Of a DNA stretch of 11,915 nucleotides, positions 1 through 11,043 are shown in pieces. The stretch covers positions 1-11,915 of the forward strand of contig JAPWUH010000027.1 in assembly GCA_028275645.1 (NCBI GenBank), given 5' to 3'. How positions within the stretch are numbered: position 1 is the stretch's first letter; each line of letters starts with the position of its first letter. The notes under the pieces are model-generated. The model made no database searches and was not told the DNA's origin. It saw nothing but the letters and a program-made list of their open reading frames with translations. This DNA is from Caldivirga sp. (GTDB lineage Archaea; Thermoproteota; Thermoprotei; Thermoproteales; Thermocladiaceae). The position numbers and the translations under genes were made by a program.

Positions 1-1559
1 CCTTCGCCTCAAAGACGTTAGGTGGGAGTGATGAAATATCAGCCGTGCAGGTTGGTAATCCACTACTTGAGAAGCTACTAATAGACGTAATCACAGAACT
101 AGCCCAAAGGAGACTTATCAAGGCCATTAAGGACGTGGGCGGTGGAGGCTTAGCAACGGTGTTGAGTGAGTTGGCTTCACAATTTAACCTAGGCATTAGG
201 GTTTACCTGGACAGGGTTAGGCTTAGGGATGAGTTAAGCCCAGGGGAGATACTCGTCTCCGAGTCCCAGGAGAGGATGGTAGTGGTGGTGGACCCAGGGC
301 GATTACGTGAAGTGGAGTCGCTGCTAGGCAGCTATGGTGTAGATTACGACGTAATAGGTGAGTTAACCGAAGGTGGAAGGTTTGAGGCGTATTACAGGGG
401 TGAGCTGGTAGCTGACCTGCCGGTTAAGTTAATCACAGGCGCCCCGGAGGCTAACCATGAACTCTCAGAACCAGCCCGGCTCAGGGGCCTTTGGGAGCTA
501 CCTCAGTTAACGCCAATACCGTTTAGGGATGCCTTGATTAAGGTGCTTTCCAGCCCCAATGTAGCCTCTAAGGAACCCATTTACACGCTGTATGACCATG
601 AGGTTGGGGTTAGGACCGTAATTAAGCCAGGGCAAGCTGGGGCAGCTGTTTTAAGGGTCCTTGAGGAGGATGGTGGTGACGGGAAGTTGGGCCTTGCCAT
701 AAAGGCTGATGCAAACCCCAGGTATTCATTCCTAGACCCATATATTGGGGCGGCTAATTCGCTGGCTAAGGCGTATAGGAATGTGGTTGCCGTCGGCGGC
801 AGGCCCATAGCAGCCGTGGACTCGATAAACGTGGGGAATCCTGAATTACCTGATAGGTACTGGTACTTCGTCATGTCGGTTAAGGGCCTTTCATGGATAG
901 CTAAGTCGTTGGGGGTACCCATAGTTGGCGGTAAGGTGAGCTTCTACAATGAGGACTCAACGGCAAACACTGTGATAAAGCCCGTGGTCGCCGTGGCCAT
1001 GCTTGGCGTATTGGATGACATAGATAGGAGCATCAGCGGTGGGCTTAAGGGTAATGGATCACTTATAGTGATTGGATTAACAGATAATGAGCTTGGCGGT
1101 TCCGAGTACCTGCATAGGGTTCATGGGATGGTTAGGGGTTTACCACCAAGGCCCAAACCGGAGGAGGAACTGCGTAACGCTGAGGTTGTACTTAGGTTAA
1201 TTGAGCGGGGACTCGTGAACTCCTGCATGGACATTGGACTGGGGGGATTGGCAACAACACTGTTAAAGATGTCAGCCACCGGTGGCGTAGGTTTTAACGT
1301 CGACTTATCGAAGACCCCTACCAACGGCACCATGGACCCTGTGGCGGTGGCCTTCTCAGAAACCAATGCAAGGTATGTGATCGAAACCCACCACGCCAGC
1401 GAGGTAATGAGTATCCTTAGGGAGGTGGGTGTACCCCACGCTGTAATAGGCGTCTCCGGGGGTGATTCAGCCAGGTTTCTGTGGATGGGTGATGAACTAG
1501 CCTCATTGAAGGTAAGCGAAGTAATGGGGTATTACTCATCACTATGGGGTGTATTTTAA
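1..1559 (+). CDS. purL: Phosphoribosylformylglycinamidine synthase subunit PurL (5' end missing)
   Basis: The large ATP-dependent subunit of FGAM synthetase, which turns FGAR into FGAM with ammonia from PurQ, in complex with PurS. The reading frame is open from base 3, so the gene begins before the window; the GTG at 45 is an internal Val within SAVQVGNP, not a start. About 518 codons are visible; family members of the small PurL type are about 700-740 residues, so roughly 200 N-terminal residues, including the catalytic His region, are off the edge. Visible motifs in order are VQVGNPLLEK, the glycine-rich KDVGGGGLA, the strongly conserved ILVSESQERM, ADANPRYSFLDPY, INVGNPE, GGKVSFYNED, SCMDIGLGGLA and FSETNARYVIE. 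The C-terminal motif usually written HDxxxGGL has Met for His here. Its TAA stop shares one base with the purF start. PurS and PurQ are encoded in a different transcription unit 6 kb away. Confidence 0.96.
   Translation, partial: FASKTLGGSDEISAVQVGNPLLEKLLIDVITELAQRRLIKAIKDVGGGGLATVLSELASQFNLGIRVYLDRVRLRDELSPGEILVSESQERMVVVVDPGRLREVESLLGSYGVDYDVIGELTEGGRFEAYYRGELVADLPVKLITGAPEANHELSEPARLRGLWELPQLTPIPFRDALIKVLSSPNVASKEPIYTLYDHEVGVRTVIKPGQAGAAVLRVLEEDGGDGKLGLAIKADANPRYSFLDPYIGAANSLAKAYRNVVAVGGRPIAAVDSINVGNPELPDRYWYFVMSVKGLSWIAKSLGVPIVGGKVSFYNEDSTANTVIKPVVAVAMLGVLDDIDRSISGGLKGNGSLIVIGLTDNELGGSEYLHRVHGMVRGLPPRPKPEEELRNAEVVLRLIERGLVNSCMDIGLGGLATTLLKMSATGGVGFNVDLSKTPTNGTMDPVAVAFSETNARYVIETHHASEVMSILREVGVPHAVIGVSGGDSARFLWMGDELASLKVSEVMGYYSSLWGVF
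1546..1551 (+). promoter_or_regulatory. Ribosome binding site that favours the 1559 start of purF
   Basis: GGGGTG lies 7 bases before the ATG at 1559 and matches the archaeal GGAGGTGA consensus with one mismatch. It overlaps the alternative upstream ATG at 1544, so that start has no comparable site. This agrees with the need for Cys at residue 2. Confidence 0.5.
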
Positions 1560-2869
1560 TGTGCGGTATATGGGCCTTCTCGGGTTCCAAAGCCCCAGGT
1601 TACGTGGCTAAGATGGCACCCTGGCACATGCATAGGGGCCAGGAGGGCGTGTCGTATGCCTGTAATGTTAACGGTGTTTTAATGAAACTTGGTAATACGG
1701 GCAACCTGGCATCTACGTTATGCCTAGGCCATGCCAGGTACTCGACAAGCGGACCTTATGGTGTGGAGCTCCAGCCTATAGTACTAGGCGACATGGCAAT
1801 GGTCTTTAATGGTACCATAGCCAACTACAAGGAACTGGTCAAGATAATGAGGAGCTGGGGTCTGGAGGTTACCAATGATCATTACGATGCTTGGGTCTTG
1901 GCAATGTACCTAAGGCACCTGTTAATGAGACACGACATTAATGGGGCGGTTAGGAGACTGTTCACGACAGTTAAGGGGGGTTATGCAATAATCGCTATAT
2001 GGAAGGGACAGCTACTGCTAATTAGGGATCCCTGGGGGATAAGGCCATTGAGCATTGGCTTCAACGACGATGGCATTGCCGCGGCCTCAGAGACTAGCGC
2101 CCTTGAGGTGTTAGGCATGAGATGGCGTGAATTGGAGCCTGGAAGAGCCGTGGTGATTAACCCCAGGGGTAATGCTGAGGTTTATGGGGATGGAACCAGG
2201 GGTGTTAAAAGGGCCTATTGCGCCCTTGAGTACATCTACTTCATGAGACCCGACTCTTACTTTAACGGAATAAGCGTGTACAGCGTCAGACAGAGACTTG
2301 GGTTATCGCTGGCTAGGAAGGAGCCAATTAAGGATATTGATACAGTGACCTCAATACCCGAATCAGCTAGGGTAGCAGCCCAGAGCTACGCAAGGGCATT
2401 GGGTAAGCCCATGGAGGATTTAATAGTGAAGAATAGGTTCCTTGGTAGGAACTTCATCAAGCCACCCATGGAGAGAAACCAGGAGCTTTACGGGGTCATT
2501 AAGGAGGGGATTAGGGGGAAGTCTCTCGTCGTCGTTGATGATTCAATAATAAGGGGTGATACCCTAAGGCTACTGATACCTAAGTTAAGGGGTTATGGTG
2601 CACGGGCCATTCATGTGAGGATTTCTTCACCACCAATAAGGTACCCGTGCTTCATGGGTATGGACTTCCCCACACGGCGTGAGTTAATAGCCCATGGTAA
2701 GGCCATTGAGGATGTTAGGAAGGCCCTTGGTTCGGATTCACTTATCTACCTCACCGTGGATGAATTGTTATGGTCCATAGGCGTTGATGAGGTCTGCACC
2801 GCATGTTTCACGGGCAATTACCCATTCAACATCAACATCGATGAGGTTGAGGGGGATTTCACCAGGTGA
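1559..2869 (+). CDS. purF: Amidophosphoribosyltransferase PurF (glutaminase-active copy)
   Basis: Catalyses the first committed purine step, PRPP plus glutamine to 5-phosphoribosylamine. The ATG at 1559 (436 residues) is chosen over 1544 because it gives M-C-G-I; removal of Met exposes the Cys nucleophile of the Ntn-hydrolase domain. The 1544 start would add a five-residue propeptide, which some PurF proteins do have. Glutaminase motifs: HRGQE (25-29), GHARYSTSG (57-65), FNG (83-85), RDPWGIRPL (156-164) and ASETSAL (176-182). The phosphoribosyltransferase domain has PES (268-270), KNRFLGRNFI (291-300) and the PRPP motif VVVDDSIIRGDT (324-335). Cys221, Cys364, Cys413 and Cys416 match the four 4Fe-4S ligands known from Bacillus PurF, so an oxygen-sensitive cluster is likely. 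Oddity: from KNR to DDS the flexible loop is about four residues shorter than in E. coli PurF and lacks the V-x-x-K segment. It overlaps purL by one base and is followed after 6 bases by a paralogue. Confidence 0.95.
   Translation: MCGIWAFSGSKAPGYVAKMAPWHMHRGQEGVSYACNVNGVLMKLGNTGNLASTLCLGHARYSTSGPYGVELQPIVLGDMAMVFNGTIANYKELVKIMRSWGLEVTNDHYDAWVLAMYLRHLLMRHDINGAVRRLFTTVKGGYAIIAIWKGQLLLIRDPWGIRPLSIGFNDDGIAAASETSALEVLGMRWRELEPGRAVVINPRGNAEVYGDGTRGVKRAYCALEYIYFMRPDSYFNGISVYSVRQRLGLSLARKEPIKDIDTVTSIPESARVAAQSYARALGKPMEDLIVKNRFLGRNFIKPPMERNQELYGVIKEGIRGKSLVVVDDSIIRGDTLRLLIPKLRGYGARAIHVRISSPPIRYPCFMGMDFPTRRELIAHGKAIEDVRKALGSDSLIYLTVDELLWSIGVDEVCTACFTGNYPFNINIDEVEGDFTR
2865..2869 (+). promoter_or_regulatory. 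Ribosome binding site of the purF paralogue
   Basis: GGTGA, a core archaeal Shine-Dalgarno, includes the purF TGA stop and ends 6 bases before the ATG at 2876. It supports that start and suggests coupled translation with purF. Confidence 0.5.
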
Positions 2870-2875
2870 TGCACT

Positions 2876-4090
2876 ATGGGTACGGCTGGGTTCCTGGGGG
2901 TTTTATCATTCCATGATGGCTGGGATGTGGGTAAGGTGCTTAAGTATGGGTTACTGGCGCTGAGACATAGGGGTGAAACCCACTGGGTTTCCGTCTTAAC
3001 CAATAGTGGGCTAGCGGCGAAGAAACTCGACGAGGTAGGCGATATTGATGTTAATGGATGGGCCGGCATAGCTTGCTCCACTACTGATGACTCACTATTT
3101 GGGGTCGTTAAGTGCGGTGATGTGGATGTGGCTTACTGCTACGAGGGGCAGGGGATCAGTGAAGGTGAGGTATGTGATATAGTCCTTAACGGTAGAGCAA
3201 TTGAAAAGAGCTTGACATTACTGGCCTTAACAAGCAACGGTCGCCTGGTGGGTTATAGATCTGTTGATGGGCGTAGGACCCTGGCTTTAGGTGCCTATGG
3301 CTTCGACCTAGCCTACATCTCCAATGAGACGGCGGCCATAAATGCAGTGGGTGGTGCAGTCAGGACCTTCATAAGACCCGGCTCGGTAATAGACATCTCC
3401 AGGTACGTGGTTAGGGAAACAAGGGTTGTTAACCATGTGGAGAACCCTAGGTTATGCCCCCTTGAATTAATCTACCTAAGCAGGGCTGACTCTGAGGTTA
3501 ATGGATACTCCGTTTATGCATTTAGGAAAGCCCTAGCCCGGAGACTAGCCACTAGGTTAAGGGGTAAAACCGCAAGGGATGTGGACATAGTCATTGGTGT
3601 ACCAGATACGGGTATCATCTACGCATTGAAGGTCGGTGAGGCGTTAGGTAAACCCGTGGAACTGGCTTTAATGAACATAGAGAGGCGCAGGTCTGCGCTC
3701 ATAGATGAGGCCACAATGAGGCAGGCTACGGTGCACCTAAAGATAACTCCTGTCGTTAAGGAGCTAAGGGGCAAGAGAGTTCTACTTATTGATGACTCAC
3801 TGTTAAGTGGCTTAACCATTAAGGAGGTGTCGCAGGTGTTGAGACATAGGGCTGGGGTTAAGGAAGTTCACGTGGGCATAGCCAGCCCCAGGATAACCAA
3901 GTCATGCCCCTACGGCGTCACCATGCCGCCAACGGAGATGCTGTTAACAAGGGTTTTTCACATTGATGAGGAGTTGATTAAGGTCCTTGAGGTTGACTCA
4001 ATAACCTGGGTCTCAATTGACGACTTGGTTAATGCCGCCAGGGAGACTGGGATAATGGAGGAGTTATGCCTAGAATGCTTCCTACGGTGA
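2876..4090 (+). CDS. PurF paralogue with a dead glutaminase domain
   Basis: A 404-residue protein with the two-domain layout of amidophosphoribosyltransferase. The N-terminus reads MGTAGFLG where PurF has MCGIxxF, so the Cys nucleophile is absent. RGQE has become RGETH (32-36), GHxRYST has become GWAGIACSTT (61-70), and the oxyanion Asn-Gly is not recognisable; only a trace of the SETxA motif remains (149-153). The phosphoribosyltransferase half is better kept: PDTG (243-246), a loop of canonical length with VHLK (286-289), and the PRPP motif VLLIDDSLLSGLT (302-314). However, KNRxxGRxFI has become MNIERRRSALI. Cys194, Cys344, Cys398 and Cys401 align with the four 4Fe-4S ligands. Retention of the cluster and PRPP site argues against a decaying gene. 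Inferred roles are a non-glutaminase partner of the neighbouring PurF, or an ammonia-dependent or regulatory subunit. The function is not established by sequence alone. Confidence 0.88.
   Translation: MGTAGFLGVLSFHDGWDVGKVLKYGLLALRHRGETHWVSVLTNSGLAAKKLDEVGDIDVNGWAGIACSTTDDSLFGVVKCGDVDVAYCYEGQGISEGEVCDIVLNGRAIEKSLTLLALTSNGRLVGYRSVDGRRTLALGAYGFDLAYISNETAAINAVGGAVRTFIRPGSVIDISRYVVRETRVVNHVENPRLCPLELIYLSRADSEVNGYSVYAFRKALARRLATRLRGKTARDVDIVIGVPDTGIIYALKVGEALGKPVELALMNIERRRSALIDEATMRQATVHLKITPVVKELRGKRVLLIDDSLLSGLTIKEVSQVLRHRAGVKEVHVGIASPRITKSCPYGVTMPPTEMLLTRVFHIDEELIKVLEVDSITWVSIDDLVNAARETGIMEELCLECFLR
4057..4063 (+). promoter_or_regulatory. Ribosome binding site upstream of purM
   Basis: GGAGGAG lies 2 bases before the ATG at 4066; counted from the GGAGG core the spacing is 4. 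It is 11 bases before the next in-frame ATG at 4075. It is the only good site here and favours 4066 over the in-frame GTG at 4087. Confidence 0.45.
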
Positions 4091-5103
4091 TCAACGTGGG
4101 TTGGACCTACAGGAGGGCTGGGGTTGACCTAAATGCACATCACGAAATGCACAACTACGCCATCGACTCAATAAGGCGGTTAGCGAGGGAATTGAACATT
4201 GAGGTTAGCGAGGGGGCCTTCACCAGGTTCCTAAGTCTCAATAACATGCAACTCACGCTCCACGTTGATGGCGTGGGTACGAAGTCCATGATAGCCTTGG
4301 CCACCCACAGGTTTAAGGTCCTTGGCTGGGACTGCGTCATAGGCAACACTAATGATGTTGCCTGCGATAACGCAAAACCACTTGCCGTGGTCGACTACGT
4401 AGCCCTAAGGGACAACGATGTGGACGCTGTTAGGGGTGTGATTGATGGGATTATTGATGCCTCAAGTAAGGTCAATGCCATGCTCCTTGGCGGTGAAACC
4501 GCCATAATGCCGGACCTGGTGAATGGGATTGACGTGGCGTGCGCCGTGCTCGGCATTAGGATTGGACTCACGGGAAACGTTAAAACTGATGATGTGGTTA
4601 TTGGGGTTTCATCAAATGGCCTCCACATGAACGGTTACTCACTGGCACGCAGGGTACTACTAGGTAAGTACAGGCTTAATGACCAAGTGTGCGGTGAGGA
4701 GCTCTCAAACCTCTTACTCAAGCCAACTGTCGATTACAGTGGGCTAATCCTTGACCTATACTATTCACGGCTAATTAAGAGGGCTGTACACGTAACCGGT
4801 GGCGCATTCACGAAGCTGAGGAGGGTTCTGGGGCCGGGCCAGGGGCTTAGTCTTGAAATGCCCGAGCCACCTTGCATTTTCCAGGAGATCCAAAGCGTTG
4901 GTGGTGTGGATTGGGGCGAAATGTACAGGGTGTTTAACATGGGCGTTGGGCTGGTGTTAATTACTGACCCAAATAACGTTGATGATGTGGTTAAGGCCGT
5001 TAGGCGTTGGAACCTTAACCCCTGGGTCCTCGGTATGGTTACTGAGGATTATCAAGGTGTTTTAAGCCTTAACCTATGGAACGGCTTAAGGGTTAAGATT
5101 TAG
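4066..5103 (+). CDS. purM: Phosphoribosylformylglycinamidine cyclo-ligase (AIR synthetase) PurM
   Basis: Closes the imidazole ring, converting FGAM to AIR with ATP; it shares the fold of PurL. Family signatures are WTYRRAGVD (13-21), the ATP/metal motif HVDGVGTK (66-73), GNTNDVAC (93-100), LGGETAIMP (141-149), SSNGLHMNGYSL (182-193), HVTGGAF (242-248) and EMYRVFNMGVG (285-295). The 345-residue length is normal. The start is uncertain. ATG 4066 has the better ribosome binding site and overlaps the PurF paralogue by 25 bases. GTG 4087 would give a 4-base GTGA overlap and an N-terminus closer in length to E. coli PurM. It is the last gene of the plus-strand operon; its TAG stop overlaps the stop of the convergent purC. 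Confidence 0.95.
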   Translation: MPRMLPTVINVGWTYRRAGVDLNAHHEMHNYAIDSIRRLARELNIEVSEGAFTRFLSLNNMQLTLHVDGVGTKSMIALATHRFKVLGWDCVIGNTNDVACDNAKPLAVVDYVALRDNDVDAVRGVIDGIIDASSKVNAMLLGGETAIMPDLVNGIDVACAVLGIRIGLTGNVKTDDVVIGVSSNGLHMNGYSLARRVLLGKYRLNDQVCGEELSNLLLKPTVDYSGLILDLYYSRLIKRAVHVTGGAFTKLRRVLGPGQGLSLEMPEPPCIFQEIQSVGGVDWGEMYRVFNMGVGLVLITDPNNVDDVVKAVRRWNLNPWVLGMVTEDYQGVLSLNLWNGLRVKI

Positions 5104-5816
5104 CCTTCAACTATTCCAAGCAGTGCATTCAACTCAGCATATGCCTTAACCAAATCTGCTGCTGAGGCGCCCTTCCTAAACAATTCCTTATCCAGGTGCC
5201 TACCCTCCTTAAGGATCCTCATCGTATCGCCACTTAACTCGTCAGCCAACAGCAACCTACCATCCCTACTAAAGCCAAACTCCAGCTTAAAATCAAGGAG
5301 GGTAAGGCCATGCATGCCCAGTAGCCCCATTAATAGGTCATTTACCTTAAGTGATGTGTTAATGACTTCCTGGAGATCCTCCCTCCCTAATAACCCCGCC
5401 TCAATTAAATCATCAGTAGTTAATAATGGGTCGTGAAGCTCATCACTCTTTAGGTGAAATTCCACCAGCGGCTTTGAAAACCTAGTCAATGGCTTAACCA
5501 TCGGCATCCTCCTCAGGAATGAGCCATAGGCGTAGTTCCTAACAATAACCTCTATCGGCACCATCCTCAAGGCCCTAACGGTTATCCTCCTATCACCATC
5601 CCAATCAATGAAGTGTGTTCTTACGCCGTTCCTCTCTAGGTAGTTCATGAAAAAGGCTGTCTGGGCAGCCGCCAACCTACCCTTACCAGCAGCCACCTCC
5701 CTCCTTAACCCATCAAGTGCAGTTACCTCGTCCTTAAACTCCATGATTAATTCATCATCATTAAGCCTATACACTCTCTTAGCCTTCCCCTCATAAATCA
5801 ACTCCACCATATTCAC
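5100..5816 (-). CDS. purC: SAICAR synthetase PurC
   Basis: Joins CAIR and aspartate with ATP to give SAICAR. The 238-residue protein has the usual length and signatures: YEGKAKRVY (8-16), FKDEVTALDG (27-36), PIEVIVRNYAYGSF (87-100), DPLLTTDDL (129-137), LLDFKLEFGF (173-182) and ADELSGDT (191-198). The last differs from the common DEISPDT. The GTG at 5816 or the ATG at 5810 could start translation. A TATA box centred near 5840 would put the transcript start at about 5815-5816, so both fit a leaderless or nearly leaderless message. The gene is the only purine gene here on the minus strand. It ends tail to tail within purM, so any read-through of either operon is antisense to the other. Confidence 0.95.
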   Translation of the reverse strand: MNMVELIYEGKAKRVYRLNDDELIMEFKDEVTALDGLRREVAAGKGRLAAAQTAFFMNYLERNGVRTHFIDWDGDRRITVRALRMVPIEVIVRNYAYGSFLRRMPMVKPLTRFSKPLVEFHLKSDELHDPLLTTDDLIEAGLLGREDLQEVINTSLKVNDLLMGLLGMHGLTLLDFKLEFGFSRDGRLLLADELSGDTMRILKEGRHLDKELFRKGASAADLVKAYAELNALLGIVEG

Positions 5817-5910: not shown

Positions 5911-7386
5911 ATGTTAAAAGATGAGGTGTTGATAGTCGGAGATGGGGCCCGTGAACACGCCATAGCCGTTAAACTGGCTGATAGCGTTCACGAACCGAGA
6001 ATACATGCATTAATGACCCATAGGAACCCTGGTATTGAGTCTATTGTAAGGCAAACGGGTGGCCGCGTCATCATTAGTAGCCTGGATGCCAAGGGCGTTG
6101 CTAAGGCTATCAATGAGGTTAACCCAGACATTGTGGTGATTGGGCCAGAGGAGTCTCAATTCGCCGGCGCCGCTGATAAGGCCATTGAAATGGGTGTACC
6201 AACCTTCGGGGTACCCCGTAGGTTAGCAGTGATTGAGCAGAACAAGGCATTTGCTAGGGAGTTGATGTGGAAGCATAAAATACCAGGTAGACTAGCCTTC
6301 AGGGCATTTAAGGATGCAGGAGATGCGGTGGAGTACATTAAAAACGCTGGTTCTGTAGCCATAAAGCCAGCTAGACAAGCTGGTGGTAAGGGTGTCCGGG
6401 TCTTCTGGGAAAACCTAGCCTACCTCAGAGATGCAATGGGTATGGCCAAGGCATCGCAAGTCATCGACGCCGCGAGGTCCGTCTCCAAATACAGCGATAT
6501 TGAGGATTTGATAATAATCGAGGAAGCAGTGACGGGGGTTGAGTATACAGTACAGGTCATAACCGATGGCTACAGCATTATCGCGCTACCGCCAATCCAG
6601 GATCACCCACACGCCTTTGATTACGATGTAGGACCAGAGTGCGGTGGTATGGGAAGTATTGTGGGGCCAGGACCTAGGTTGCCATTCCTACTAGATGATG
6701 AGTATTGGGAGAGTGTCGATATTGTCAAGCGGACGATAGAGGCGTTGCAAAGGGAGGTTGGTGGTAGGTACGTTGGTGTCCTCTCGGGTCAATTCATGCT
6801 TACGACTTACGGACCAACACTGATTGAGTACTACAGTAGGTTCGGTGACCCGGAGGTTACAAATGCCCTAGCCCTCCTTGAGGCCGACCTCCTGGAGTTG
6901 ATTGAGGCTGCGGTTGAGGGTAGGTTATCCAGCGTTAAGTATAGCTTCAGGGATAACACTGTGGCTATAACTAAGGCTGTGGCGCCCGTGGGTTACCCAC
7001 ACAATAGGGATATGGCGATTAACAGGACAATAACCATAAATGAGAGTGCAATAGCCAAACTAGGCTGTTCCCTATTCTACGGCTCCATCGAGAGGATTAA
7101 CGGTGCCTACAGGACTTTAGGTTCAAGAGCTGTGGAGGTAATGGCCCTGGGCAACACGTACCAGGATGCGTATAGCACTGTTGAAAGGTGCGTGTCCCAG
7201 GTTTCATCGCCTGATTGGCAACTGTTCCATAGGCTAGACATTGGGAGCCCTGAGCTTGTGAGTAGGAGGATTGCCGAGGCTGAGACCATTAGGCAGGTTT
7301 ACACATGGAGACGGCTGCATGGACTTGGTAAGGTTAGGGTGGATTGGGTGCCTGGTAGGGAGCCCATAGTCTACGACTACTCATGA
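5911..7386 (+). CDS. purD: Phosphoribosylamine-glycine ligase (GAR synthetase) PurD
   Basis: Ligates glycine to 5-phosphoribosylamine with ATP; it takes the unstable product of PurF. ATP-grasp signatures in order are VGDGAREHA (9-17), IGPEESQFAGAAD (77-89), KPARQAGGKGV (152-162), EEAVTGVEYTVQVITDG (204-220), LPPIQDH (226-232), GPECGGMG (241-248) and LIEYYSRFGDPE (304-315). In most PurD proteins the last is IExNxRFGDPE, where the Asn binds Mg-ATP; here that Asn is Tyr308. At 491 residues it is longer than the bacterial enzyme (about 430), mostly through a C-terminal extension of about 45 residues after the HRLDIG segment (from about 446). It has its own leaderless promoter, stands alone between two promoters and is co-oriented with purSQT. 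Confidence 0.93.
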   Translation: MLKDEVLIVGDGAREHAIAVKLADSVHEPRIHALMTHRNPGIESIVRQTGGRVIISSLDAKGVAKAINEVNPDIVVIGPEESQFAGAADKAIEMGVPTFGVPRRLAVIEQNKAFARELMWKHKIPGRLAFRAFKDAGDAVEYIKNAGSVAIKPARQAGGKGVRVFWENLAYLRDAMGMAKASQVIDAARSVSKYSDIEDLIIIEEAVTGVEYTVQVITDGYSIIALPPIQDHPHAFDYDVGPECGGMGSIVGPGPRLPFLLDDEYWESVDIVKRTIEALQREVGGRYVGVLSGQFMLTTYGPTLIEYYSRFGDPEVTNALALLEADLLELIEAAVEGRLSSVKYSFRDNTVAITKAVAPVGYPHNRDMAINRTITINESAIAKLGCSLFYGSIERINGAYRTLGSRAVEVMALGNTYQDAYSTVERCVSQVSSPDWQLFHRLDIGSPELVSRRIAEAETIRQVYTWRRLHGLGKVRVDWVPGREPIVYDYS

Positions 7387-7470: not shown

Positions 7471-7764
7471 ATGCCCATGAATGGGGTTAAGGGTGGAAGG
7501 TACCTAGTTCACGTAGCCATAACCCTCAAGGGTTCAAGGGACCCTGAGGGTGAGACAATACTTAAGGATGTGGTTACGGCATCAGGCCTCAGTGGCGTAT
7601 TGAAGGTACGTAGTGGCAAGTACCTGGGCTTCGTAATCTCAGCACCAAACGCCGAGGGGGCGGTTAAGGCAGTGGCTGACCTATGCTATAGGCTTAGGAT
7701 CTACAACCCAACGGTCCACGAATTACTGGTGTTGGGTGTTGAGGATGAGGGTAGCGGTGATTAG
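7471..7764 (+). CDS. purS: FGAM synthetase subunit PurS
   Basis: The small structural subunit that holds the PurL-PurQ complex together. At 97 residues it is slightly longer than the typical 80-85. The family pattern of an edge strand followed by xDPEGxxI is present: VHVAITLKGSRDPEGETI (13-30). Then come GVLKVRSGKYLGFVI (42-56) and an alpha helix that begins NAEGAVKAVADL (59-70). The TATA spacing favours the first ATG; a second Met two codons on is possible. It overlaps purQ by 20 bases, fitting the 1:1:1 assembly of the complex. Confidence 0.92.
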   Translation: MPMNGVKGGRYLVHVAITLKGSRDPEGETILKDVVTASGLSGVLKVRSGKYLGFVISAPNAEGAVKAVADLCYRLRIYNPTVHELLVLGVEDEGSGD

Positions 7765-8413
7765 GTTCCCGGGGACTAACGGGGACTTAGATGTTGCTCA
7801 TGTGCTCAATAGGGTAGTGGGCCTTAGGGCTGACGTAGTGTGGCATGAGAAATTCGAAGGCGAGGGTTACGATGCGGTTGTAATACCAGGTGGCTTTAGC
7901 TATGGTGATTGGCTCAGGGCAGGGGCCATAGCCTCAAGAAGCCCAGCTCTAAAGGAGATTAGGGAAATGGCCAGTGATGGAAAGCCCATCCTAGGCATAT
8001 GCAATGGCTTTCAGATACTCGTCGAGTCAGGGCTATTGCCAGGTGCGCTGTTACCCAACGACCCACCCAGGTTCATGGCGAGGTGGGTTAGGGTTAAGGT
8101 ACTCAATACCAAGACACCCTTCACCGCCATGTATAACGACGGCGAGGTGGCTTCAATGCCCATAGCCCACGGTGAGGGAAGGTACTACATCGACAATACC
8201 ATCAGCGTCAACGCTGTATTCACCTACCACGGCGAGAACCCAAACGGGTCTATCAACAGTATCGCTGGCGTAGCCAGCGGTGACGGTAATGTGGTTGGTT
8301 TAATGCCACACCCTGAGAGGGCCTCTGAGGATGCACTGGTGCCTAGGGGGCATGGTAAGGGTGGTTTGAAGCTATGGTTGAGTCTTAGGGAGAGCTTATT
8401 GAGGGGGTGGTGA
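7745..8413 (+). CDS. purQ: FGAM synthetase glutaminase subunit PurQ
   Basis: A class I (triad) glutamine amidotransferase that supplies ammonia to PurL. The ATG at 7745 gives 222 residues and the family N-terminus [16 protein letters not shown] at 7736 would add three residues; GGTG at 7735-7738 is well placed as the ribosome binding site of 7745. Motifs: [15 protein letters not shown] (47-61), the nucleophile elbow GICNGFQ with Cys86 (84-90), [10 protein letters not shown] (139-148), and MPHPERA with His189 and Glu191 (187-193), completing the triad. It lies between purS (20-base overlap) and purT (1-base overlap). Confidence 0.95.
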
Positions 8414-9624
8414 TGGAGTTCGGCACACCGCTAATGGAGGGGGCTAGGAAGGTTCTCCTGCTGGGTAGTGGTGAGTTGGGTAAGGAGATGGCCATAGAGG
8501 CCCAGAGGCTTGGCGTTGAGGTTGTAGCTGTGGATAGGTACGATATGGCGCCCGCGATGCACATAGCCCATAGGAGGTATGTGGTCAACATGATGGATGG
8601 GGACGCCGTTAGGGCGGTGGTGAGGAGGGAGACCCCGGACGCCATTATAGCCGAGATAGAGGCCATAAACACCGACGCTCTCATGAAACTTGAGGAGGAG
8701 GGGTTCAGGGTGGTGCCTAACGCCAGGGCAGTTAAGGTATGCATGAATAGGGTGGAATTGAGGATTCTGGCCGCTGAGAAGCTGGGGTTACCGACGACTA
8801 GGTACCATATAGCTGAGTCACCTAGCGACGTGGAAAGCGCCTGTAGGGATTTGGGTTACCCATGCCTAGTAAAGCCTGAGATGAGTTCAAGTGGACATGG
8901 GCACGTGGTTATCAGAAATAGGGATGAGGTCGAGAAGGGGTTTAAGCAAGCCATTCAACACGCCAGAGGAGTAAGTAAACAGGTAGTAGTAGAGGAGTTC
9001 GTGGAGATAGATAGGGAGTTCACGGTATTGACGTATAGGCACAGGGTTTTGGATAAGGCTGAGATAAGGACTCTGATACCCATTGAACATCAAAGGCCCA
9101 GAGGGGTCTTCCATTACGTGGAGTCCTGGCACCCACTAACCGCCGAGGAAACGGTGTTAAGGACAGCTAGGGAAATAGCGACTAAGGTTGTAGATGAGTT
9201 GGGTGGACTCGGGATCTACGGCGTGGAACTGATACTAACGAGGGATGGTAGACTACTATTCAGCGAAGTTGCGCCTAGACCACACGATACAGGGCTCGTG
9301 ACGCTGGTGAGCACGGACATAAATGAATTCCAAATACATGTCAGGGCAGCGCTGGGGCTTCAAATACCTGAAGTTAAGCTCGTAACCCCAGCAGCATCAC
9401 ATGTAATAATTGCCGATAACGAGGGCTACGCACCGAGGTTCATAGGCATTGAGGAAGCCTTGGCAATACCAGGCGTTCAGGTTAGGCTTTTCGGTAAACC
9501 AAACACGTATAGGGGTAGGAGAATGGGCGTGGTTTTAGCCGTCGGGAATACTGTTGAGGAGGCTAGGGAAAGGGCAAGGCTTGCAGCCTCTAGGATCAAG
9601 GTAATTCCTAAGATCCCTGAATAA
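8413..9624 (+). CDS. purT: Formate-dependent GAR transformylase PurT
   Basis: Makes FGAR from GAR, formate and ATP, so this step does not need 10-formyl-folate (no purN is seen). The 403-residue ATP-grasp protein resembles E. coli PurT along its length: [13 protein letters not shown] (13-25), [11 protein letters not shown] (40-50), EIEAINTD (81-88), VKPEMSSSG (153-161), VESWHP, GVELIL and [16 protein letters not shown]. The ATP-loop motif SSSGKGQ of E. coli reads SSSGHGH here, replacing Lys with His162 and Gln with His164. ATG 8413 overlaps the purQ TGA (TGATG) and has GAGGGGG five bases upstream; an in-frame GTG at 8407 would add two residues. It is the last gene of the purSQT operon. Confidence 0.96.
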
Positions 9625-9717: not shown

Positions 9718-10149
9718 TCACCAGTATTGGGGCCTCTCGCTGTATCTCACCTTATCCGGAGGGTCATCAATGAACCTCCACTTCCCTGAACCAGCAGCCA
9801 ATATAATTATGCCGAACTCCTCAGCCAGCACGTCGCTTATCAAAACCTCCTCCTCCGTTGGTGATATCATTACATCAACGAACTTAGGGCCCACCTCCCT
9901 ATCGCCGGTAACAACCCAGGCCTGTAAAGCTTCCCTAACAAGGAACACCCTCACTGGGCCACCCGCAGTCCCAACCTCAATTACGCTTGATGTAGGTGGT
10001 GGAGGGTAGAGCGAGAGCTGCCTAGCCAGGGGAATGGGTATGAGGAGCTGTGGACTCTCAGCCTCAAAGCCACTGTTGACCAGGGCGGAGATCTCAATGG
10101 TCTCTTGCGAGGTCTTAGACCTAAGCCTTAGTCTCACCCTCACGGCCAT
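9718..10149 (-). CDS. Small protein resembling a retropepsin-like aspartyl protease
   Basis: A 143-residue protein without signal peptide or membrane segment. SALVNSGFEAESPQLLIP (21-38) followed by a helix LARQL resembles the active-site strand of clan AA retropepsin-like proteases, normally ALVDTG or ALVDSG, and EEVLISDVLAEEFGIII (99-115) resembles their second structural repeat (LLGxDFLxxxxxxID). The catalytic Asp would be Asn25, so proteolysis is doubtful; a binding or scaffold role is possible. The match is to a short motif plus predicted strand pattern, so the assignment is tentative. The start ATG has GAGGTG five bases upstream, held within a hairpin. It converges on purT and is not part of the purine cluster by orientation. 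Upstream DNA carries 33-base repeats and a small overlapping reading frame. Confidence 0.7.
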   Translation of the reverse strand: MAVRVRLRLRSKTSQETIEISALVNSGFEAESPQLLIPIPLARQLSLYPPPPTSSVIEVGTAGGPVRVFLVREALQAWVVTGDREVGPKFVDVMISPTEEEVLISDVLAEEFGIIILAAGSGKWRFIDDPPDKVRYSERPQYW

Positions 10150-10584: not shown

Positions 10585-11043
10585 GTGCAGGAATTACTGA
10601 GGTTGATAAGTGAGGAGAGTAGGAAGAGGGGTATGAGCCCAGAGCTCTTCCTAGCAGACTTAATAGTGCAGAGACTTGACCCAAAGGAGAGGGTAAGTGT
10701 ATACCTGAAACTTCATGAGGCACTCCTGAGAGGGGCTGAGGAGGAGTATGCGAGGGGTGATTTGGTTCAGGCCAGCGAGAAGCTTTGGGGCTCAGTCGCC
10801 TCACTGCTCAATGCAATAGCCGAGGTTAGGGGTTGGGAGCACTATAGCCATAGGGACTATGACGTAATAGTGCAGAACATATACGAAGAGACTGGTGATA
10901 AGGAATTGGTACTTTACTTCGGTATGGCCGAAAGACTACATGCTAATTTCTACAACAACTTCATGAGCAAGGAGGTCTTCGAACTCCATAGGGATTACGT
11001 GCTCAAGTTGATTAACAAATTGAAAGAATTCATCAAGCAATAG
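10585..11043 (+). CDS. PaREP1 family protein
   Basis: A 152-residue, mostly helical protein matching the archaeal PaREP1 family first noted as a repeated family in Pyrobaculum aerophilum. The core is present: LDPKERVSVYLKLHEALL (31-48), then GDLVQASEKLWGSVAS (58-73), IAEVRGWEHYSHRDY (78-92) and the LHANFYNNFM segment (118-127). The biochemical role of the family is unknown. From memory Pfam groups it with HEPN/KNTase C-terminal helical domains; R82-x6-H89 fits the R-x4-6-H spacing of HEPN RNases, but this is suggestive only. No nucleotidyltransferase partner gene is next to it. The GTG start is supported by the leaderless TATA spacing. A perfect 18-base palindrome begins directly after its TAG stop. 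Confidence 0.88.
   Translation: MQELLRLISEESRKRGMSPELFLADLIVQRLDPKERVSVYLKLHEALLRGAEEEYARGDLVQASEKLWGSVASLLNAIAEVRGWEHYSHRDYDVIVQNIYEETGDKELVLYFGMAERLHANFYNNFMSKEVFELHRDYVLKLINKLKEFIKQ

Follow-up and report, generated by a model that had tools for sequence, protein, structure and literature searches.

PurF', a glutaminase-dead PurF paralogue of Thermoproteota archaea, appears to track a tailed type of PurD

Introduction

PurF and PurD, the first two enzymes of bacterial purine synthesis, are thought to hand over unstable phosphoribosylamine by channelling (Rudolph and Stubbe, 1995, cited in PMC10912719 and PMC3261824). According to a review, a stable interaction between the bacterial enzymes has been sought without success (PMC10912719), and for Aquifex, Brown et al. 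report in vitro PurF-PurD coupling too weak for use and suggest a further component (PMC3261824). The same authors described PurF' (Brown et al., 2011, Biol Direct 6:63; PMC3261824), a crenarchaeal family of PurF-like proteins without the catalytic cysteine that is encoded beside a Cys-type PurF in purine gene clusters, with one member per purine-making crenarchaeon. A literature search, with most subscription journals outside its scope, found no experimental paper on PurF'. Here, we describe a purF' gene in a stretch of 11,915 nucleotides from Caldivirga sp. (contig JAPWUH010000027.1; hereafter the window) together with its relatives. The spread of PurF' to other lineages of the phylum, its residue-level pattern, its Cys-keeping relatives and its link to a tailed PurD go beyond the sections of Brown et al. 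(PMC3261824) that deal with the family.

Results

The window carries a purine gene cluster that begins with purL (45..1559, + strand), its N-terminal part absent where the contig starts, and continues with a Cys-type purF (1559..2869, +; alternative start 1544) directly upstream of purF' (2876..4090, +; 404 aa, stop TGA at 4088-4090). As the original prediction held, this neighbouring purF is intact, with MCGI, HRGQE, GHARYST and DDSIIRGDT present. The purM ORF (4066..5103, +) overlaps the end of purF' by 25 nt, purC (5100..5816) lies on the minus strand, and purD of the PurF'-associated type (5911..7386, +; 491 aa) is followed by purS (7471-7764, +), purQ (7736-8413, +) and, last of the cluster, purT (8407-9624, +; NF006766, 540.6 bits, cut-off 339). 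A purT gene is also found in Caldivirga sp. MU80 (L101); Brown et al. list the Thermoproteales GAR formyltransferase as PurN (PMC3261824). Beyond the purine cluster lie a PaREP1/PaREP8 family ORF (10585-11043; PF05942, 88.7 bits) and, on the minus strand, a 143-aa ORF (9718-10149) without a Pfam match that is conserved in Caldivirga sp. MU80.

The N-terminal half of purF' (2876..3454, +) is a remnant of an Ntn glutaminase domain. The protein begins MGTAG, with Ala4 (codon 2885-2887, +) in the catalytic-Cys column of the alignment, and has GIACSTT where GHxRYST would stand, both in agreement with the original prediction; the loss of RGQE that it also proposed is partial, with RGET in its place but HRG itself retained and only the residues after it changed. 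The phosphoribosyltransferase (PRT) half (3455..4087, +) begins at the first Fe-S cysteine, Cys194 (3455..3457, +). It contains GVPDTG (residues 241-246, 3596..3613, +; E. coli 300-305), presumably the PPi-loop/Mg site region, a flexible loop RSAL...LK (residues 272-289, 3689..3742, +; E. coli Arg332 to Lys349) with Ala at the Phe334 position, and the PRPP loop VLLIDDSLLSGLT (residues 302-314, 3779..3817, +; E. coli 362-374). Cys344 (3905..3907, +) and the CxxC pair Cys398 and Cys401 (4067..4078, +), which overlaps the start of the purM ORF, complete the Fe-S set. All four cysteines and the PRPP loop were located where the original prediction had placed them, with codons checked, and the four columns hold Cys in 82, 85, 85 and 85 of 85 PurF', respectively.

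Pfam matched the 404-aa ORF with PF00156 alone (38.8 bits, above the gathering score of 26.3) and gave no glutaminase domain match (PF13522/PF13537) in the N-half. By the PF00156 score the product is a class I phosphoribosyltransferase, and PRPP-dependent catalysis is putative. TIGR01134 (purF) matched residues 118-402 at 136.4 bits, under its cut-off of 350; the cut-off is severe for this phylum, since the neighbouring Cys-type PurF also falls short at 297.5 bits. Judged by the features of TIGR01134 PurF, the window PurF' has the Asp-Asp-Ser of the PRPP loop and lacks the catalytic Cys and the Arg73 loop. Profile comparison still detects homology between the N-half and the PurF glutaminase half (hhalign probability 98.8 with Thermoproteales PurF' only, against 0.4 for a PRT-half control). 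The window PurF' is 31% identical to the neighbouring PurF over 288 aligned positions, and a 99% identical protein is present in a contig titled Caldivirga sp. MU80. Its PRT half resembles PurF of the B. subtilis type (1ao0, 1gph; 1.7e-36 to 1ao0), with which it shares the Fe-S cysteines and the PRPP motif; unlike that enzyme, it has no catalytic Cys and no glutamine loop, its flexible loop is different and its N-half is shorter.

Orthologues, proposed as a check in the original prediction, are widespread. In a survey of the order, 30/45 genomes had a match, and the 25 good genomes (completeness ≥90%, contamination ≤5%) comprised 18 with both PurF and PurF', 7 with neither and 0 with one alone. 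Across the phylum, PurF' was counted by hand in at least 106 of 397 genomes (Thermoproteota by contig titles; at least 333 bits to a PurF' profile), the type being confirmed on sequence for the genes that were fetched. Of the at least 106 genomes listed, 104/106 have a second PurF match, one (G223) has its second PurF in pieces on two contigs, and in one (G218) PurF' reaches the contig end and a second PurF is not judgeable; PurF' is the only PurF in 0/105 judgeable genomes. A further 174 genomes of the phylum have a match without PurF' among the matches listed, which in a few (G108, G115) may be an artefact, PurF lying less than 300 bases from the contig end; G364, with purD directly after purF, is a better case of absence. 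Relatives in a protein search are named Bathyarchaeia, Nezhaarchaeales, Hecatellales and Methanosuratincola, and the seven matches titled as bacteria are all Cys-type PurF.

Several loci of these surveys are unusual. On one contig titled Euryarchaeota archaeon (L112), Cys-type purF and purF' occur with a purD of the tailed type (605.7 bits); the contig is either mislabelled or a case of transfer. The PurF of G243 (locus L232, family f37) scores 631 bits with the Thermoproteales profile and is likely contamination. In four draft genomes of genus g4 (L072, L073, L074, L075; three of the contigs titled Vulcanisaeta), purF and/or purF' is spread over several frames, probably through sequencing errors.

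The adjacency of purF' to a Cys-type purF, part of the original prediction, is common rather than universal: purF lies directly before purF' on the same strand in 58/77 loci holding both. purD lies within 200 nt of purF' in 66/84 loci, and beside purF' in 15 of the 25 loci without a same-strand purF next to it. This neighbourhood may partly be inherited, since purD is also near purF in 18/45 PurF'-less loci, which have short flanks. In the window's lineage purF' is beside purF and not beside purD, and in family f39 (G151, G186) it is unlinked to both, with a PurD that has no tail.

Residues were compared in an alignment of 85 PurF', 85 partner PurF and 45 PurF of PurF'-less genomes with E. coli PurF. 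Counts leave out the genes of draft genomes G015 (PurF only), G016, G019 and G020 that are split over several frames, and an incomplete PurF from G039; in G080 the N-terminus of PurF is truncated, and in G378 a contig start cuts the gene. The catalytic Cys is present in 84/84 readable partner PurF and 0/85 PurF', and its absence is beyond chance because all 85 lack it. Arg73 is likewise found in 0/85 PurF'. At seven positions, a residue with at least 97% uniformity among Cys-type PurF is kept by at most 10% of PurF': Cys1, Arg73, Tyr74, Thr76, Asn101, Phe259 and Phe334. All 85 PurF' retain Tyr258, Pro302, Arg332, Lys349, Asp366, Asp367, Ser368 and Gly372, together with Arg/Lys342 and Ser/Thr374, and 84/85 have Ser/Thr333. 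Most of these conserved or lost positions are tabulated as PRPP- or glutamine-contact residues in PMC7953260, where a glutamine analogue contacts Arg73, Thr76, Ala77 and Gly102, the ammonia channel includes Tyr74 and Ile335, and a PRPP analogue is bound at Arg342, Arg343, Lys344, Lys349, Thr333, Phe334, residue 258, Thr374 and Arg371.

At several PRPP positions, partner PurF are looser (Lys349 58/85, Asp366 73/85, Ser/Thr333 34/85), and in this alignment the site is conserved more strictly in PurF' than in PurF. The looser positions of PurF are not tied to PurF', because PurF of PurF'-less genomes are likewise loose (Lys349 21/45, Ser/Thr333 31/45). The original prediction had limited the erosion to the glutaminase half. 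The Cys and GHxRYST are indeed gone from that half, but Arg371, Thr373 and Phe334 in the other are also replaced in the window protein; Arg371 is Arg in 35/85 and Thr373 is Thr in 20/85 PurF', and catalysis may therefore be altered or lost.

Two further explanations of the residue pattern were rejected. Reciprocal erosion, in which genomes with PurF' would lose the PRPP site of their PurF, had an early sign in Asp or Asn at Thr373 of many partner PurF. The early PurF'-less set was biased to high purF scores, and after 23 PurF'-less genomes were added, Asp373 stood in 14 and Lys349 in only 21 of the 45 PurF'-less PurF. The Asp for Thr373 (RGDT) in these PurF'-less PurF (e.g. L246, L243, L241) places an acidic residue in the phosphate-binding loop. 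The idea that losing the Cys brought about a selective loss of channel residues was also rejected: residue 334 is Ala in 11 relatives that keep the Cys, so Ala334 is a trait of the PurF' clade.

These relatives come from a wider search that listed 101 further relatives, of which 11 retain the Cys (P0272, P0275, P0277, P0278, P0279, P0282, P0283, P0285, P0288, P0290, P0315) and 1 more is unreadable there; one is named Freyarchaeota and one Bathyarchaeia. All 11 fall inside the PurF' clade and have Asn101, Gly102 and Asp127, with Arg73 and Tyr74 absent. The existence of relatives with the Cys but without Arg73-Tyr74 suggests that the glutamine loop was lost first and the Cys later. A tree of the PRT half (125 rows) groups PurF' in a single clade (44 rows, 100/99), and the Cys-type PurF sampled from archaea and bacteria lie across that branch. 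The window ORF matches PurF' as Brown et al. define it (PMC3261824), lacking the Cys, neighbouring a Cys-type PurF and further pur genes, and falling in a cluster separate from PurF among the sequences of this tree.

Pairwise dN/dS of PurF', another check proposed for the PRT half, was 0.05-0.22 there over 13 pairs and 0.05-0.32 over 11 pairs of the N-half, 2 others giving no usable value. Purifying selection acts on both halves, and PurF values are similar or somewhat lower. With widespread orthologues, a second PurF in every judgeable genome and purifying selection in both halves, the originally predicted maintained non-glutaminase protein of purine synthesis is supported; a lack of orthologues and dN/dS near 1, the marks of a decaying duplicate, were looked for and neither was found. 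Distances of PurF and PurF' correlate at 0.65 for PRT halves and 0.86 for N-halves (81 genomes), a measure that cannot separate interaction from shared descent. A link to thermophily was examined, and the IVYWREL fraction of PurF differs weakly between 21 families with PurF' (0.447) and 24 without (0.419).

By the comparisons that follow, the strongest evolutionary partner of PurF' is PurD and not PurF, a relation absent from the original prediction and new here. With a profile made from PurD of PurF'-bearing genomes, PurD scores are 588-799 bits in such genomes (287-568 for four partial genes) and 56-407 in PurF'-less genomes, where some of the genes are partial. As the PurD profile is biased to its own group, PurD trees were built. 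In a tree of 73 rows, drawn from 116 sequences with no more than 2-4 per family, 41 PurF'-associated PurD are separated from 32 others by one 100/100 branch; the program flagged long branches, among them G324, G416 and G364, and a deviating composition in ten rows. The tree and the tail count below leave out partial PurD of four PurF'-bearing genomes (G148, G218, G239, G319) and of G045, G128 and G378; no PurD match was obtained for G084, and no locus for G127.

In quick trees of 30 matched genomes (29 for PurF, 28 for PurM), the PurF' label must change 1 time on PurD, 5 on RpoB, 6 on PurF and 7 on PurM, and the changes forced by well-supported branches alone number 1, 5, 3 and 2, respectively. 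Topologies were tested for 39 genomes with 2000 replicates, below the number that the program recommends. The PurF' alignment is compatible with the PurD topology (AU 0.17, difference 22 log units) and rejects that of PurF (183 units); the PurD alignment rejects the PurF' and PurF topologies, and the PurF alignment rejects both others too. Tree distances are 18 for PurF'-PurD, 20 for PurF-PurF' and 26 for PurF-PurD, of 72. Co-inheritance of PurF' and PurD is imperfect, because the PurD alignment rejects the PurF' tree and the tree distances differ little. Two genomes of one genus, G340 and G364, are 90.7% identical in RpoB and 28.9% in PurD, and only G340 has PurF'; the PurF of G364 is 78.9% identical to that of G319, which has PurF' and belongs to this genus too. 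In genus g136 (L251, L186), either a plain purD has replaced a purF'-purD pair or the pair has replaced a plain purD, with purF retained.

PurF'-associated PurD carries an insert of about 8 residues (window PurD residues 184-191, 6460..6483, +) and, after RxDIG, a C-terminal tail that follows the pattern RxxYxxRxxxG...WxP (in the window residues 461-491, RQVYTWRRLHGLGKVRVDWVPG..., 7291..7383, +), a candidate docking element. The tail is present in 76/79 readable PurD of PurF'-bearing genomes (66 by a strict and 10 by a loose pattern; 1 further unreadable), being missing in G317, G151 and G186, and in 0/34 of PurF'-less genomes (2 further unreadable). Among the best 120 homologues of the window PurD, 107 have the tail by either pattern, 6 do not and 7 are unreadable. 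By name, tailed PurD occurs in archaea outside the phylum: two of the 107 are labelled Jordarchaeales and Freyarchaeota, which we take to be Asgard archaea.

Discussion

Our main reading, to which we give a probability of about 0.5, is that PurF' arose from PurF long ago, no longer hydrolyses glutamine and retains a predicted PRPP-binding PRT site, and that it acts with PurF as a PRPP-using subunit, passing phosphoribosylamine to a dedicated tailed PurD. Sequence comparison establishes the residue pattern, the purifying selection, the co-occurrence with a second PurF and the co-segregation with tailed PurD. PurF' would sit in a PurF-PurF'-PurD assembly, which fits the PurD co-inheritance, the PurD tail, the constant second PurF and the strict PRPP site. 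At the PurF' site, PRPP and ammonia, either free or from the PurF glutaminase, would yield phosphoribosylamine, or the site may hold this product; the PurD tail would dock on PurF', and the labile phosphoribosylamine would go straight to PurD. That PurF' and tailed PurD come and go together suggests a unit working on the unstable intermediate. What sets this apart from the bacterial PurF-PurD pair is the association of a third protein and of a tail on PurD.

Other roles for PurF' have to be weighed against this one. A regulatory role is possible, though unlikely: PurF' would be a pseudo-enzyme subunit that binds PRPP or nucleotides within a PurF oligomer and tunes PurF, for which PRPP-synthase-associated proteins and the PRPP-sensing repressor PurR are models. 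Such a role would suit the second PurF found wherever it could be judged and the change of Arg371 and Thr373 in many PurF'. Purine nucleotides moreover regulate PurF through sites that overlap its PRPP site, and ppGpp does so between its glutaminase domains (PMC7056826), and human PPAT is held by an inhibitor protein via purine nucleotides (PMC13421311). However, the invariance of Arg332 and Lys349 (85/85 each) is stricter than sensing alone should require, and regulation leaves the linkage to PurD type unexplained. Brown et al. saw PurF' instead as a free-standing, ammonia-dependent PRPP aminotransferase for times when ammonia is plentiful, and Cys-less E. coli PurF still uses ammonia (PMC3261824). 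The intact PRPP site without a glutaminase agrees with this, but a self-sufficient enzyme is expected to replace PurF sometimes and PurF' stands alone in none of the 105 judgeable genomes, so we consider the proposal distinctly unlikely.

We regard it as improbable that PurF' uses PRPP in some other reaction, such as one with a different amine. Its flexible loop reads R-S/T-A/M-L/I against R-T-F-I in PurF, and in many crenarchaeal PurF' the PRPP loop takes the T/S-G-x-T form of class I enzymes in general; PurF' is nevertheless found in purine gene clusters and, within the order, is absent from the same genomes as PurF. An Ntn-type half also brings to mind the missing IMP cyclohydrolase of crenarchaea, as PurO has an Ntn-like fold. 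PurO was found in 1/397 and PurH-type matches in 19/397 genomes, and the crenarchaeal enzyme is described as missing (PMC6797443). Yet most of the 174 PurF'-less genomes with PurF also have no PurO or PurH matches, and the N-half is the less conserved half of PurF'; the survey does not support the idea, which we hold to be very improbable. The PurO and PurH families leave IMP cyclohydrolase unaccounted for in most purine-making genomes of the phylum, beyond the crenarchaea. Decay of a recent purF duplicate could account for the lost glutaminase motifs and is just as hard to credit for a single ancient clade under purifying selection in more than a quarter of the genomes surveyed.

A stronger form of our main reading, in which PurF', Cys-type PurF and tailed PurD would make up an obligate three-part machine, with PurF supplying ammonia, PurF' making or receiving phosphoribosylamine and the PurD tail docking on PurF', is put forward tentatively, as somewhat less probable than the reading itself. 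If it is true, a dedicated third protein would be the archaeal solution for passing on an unstable intermediate, and PurF' and PurD would have been swapped between lineages as a cassette while each lineage kept its own PurF. The co-segregation of PurF' with tailed PurD makes the question of phosphoribosylamine transfer concrete, and bears on bacteria too.
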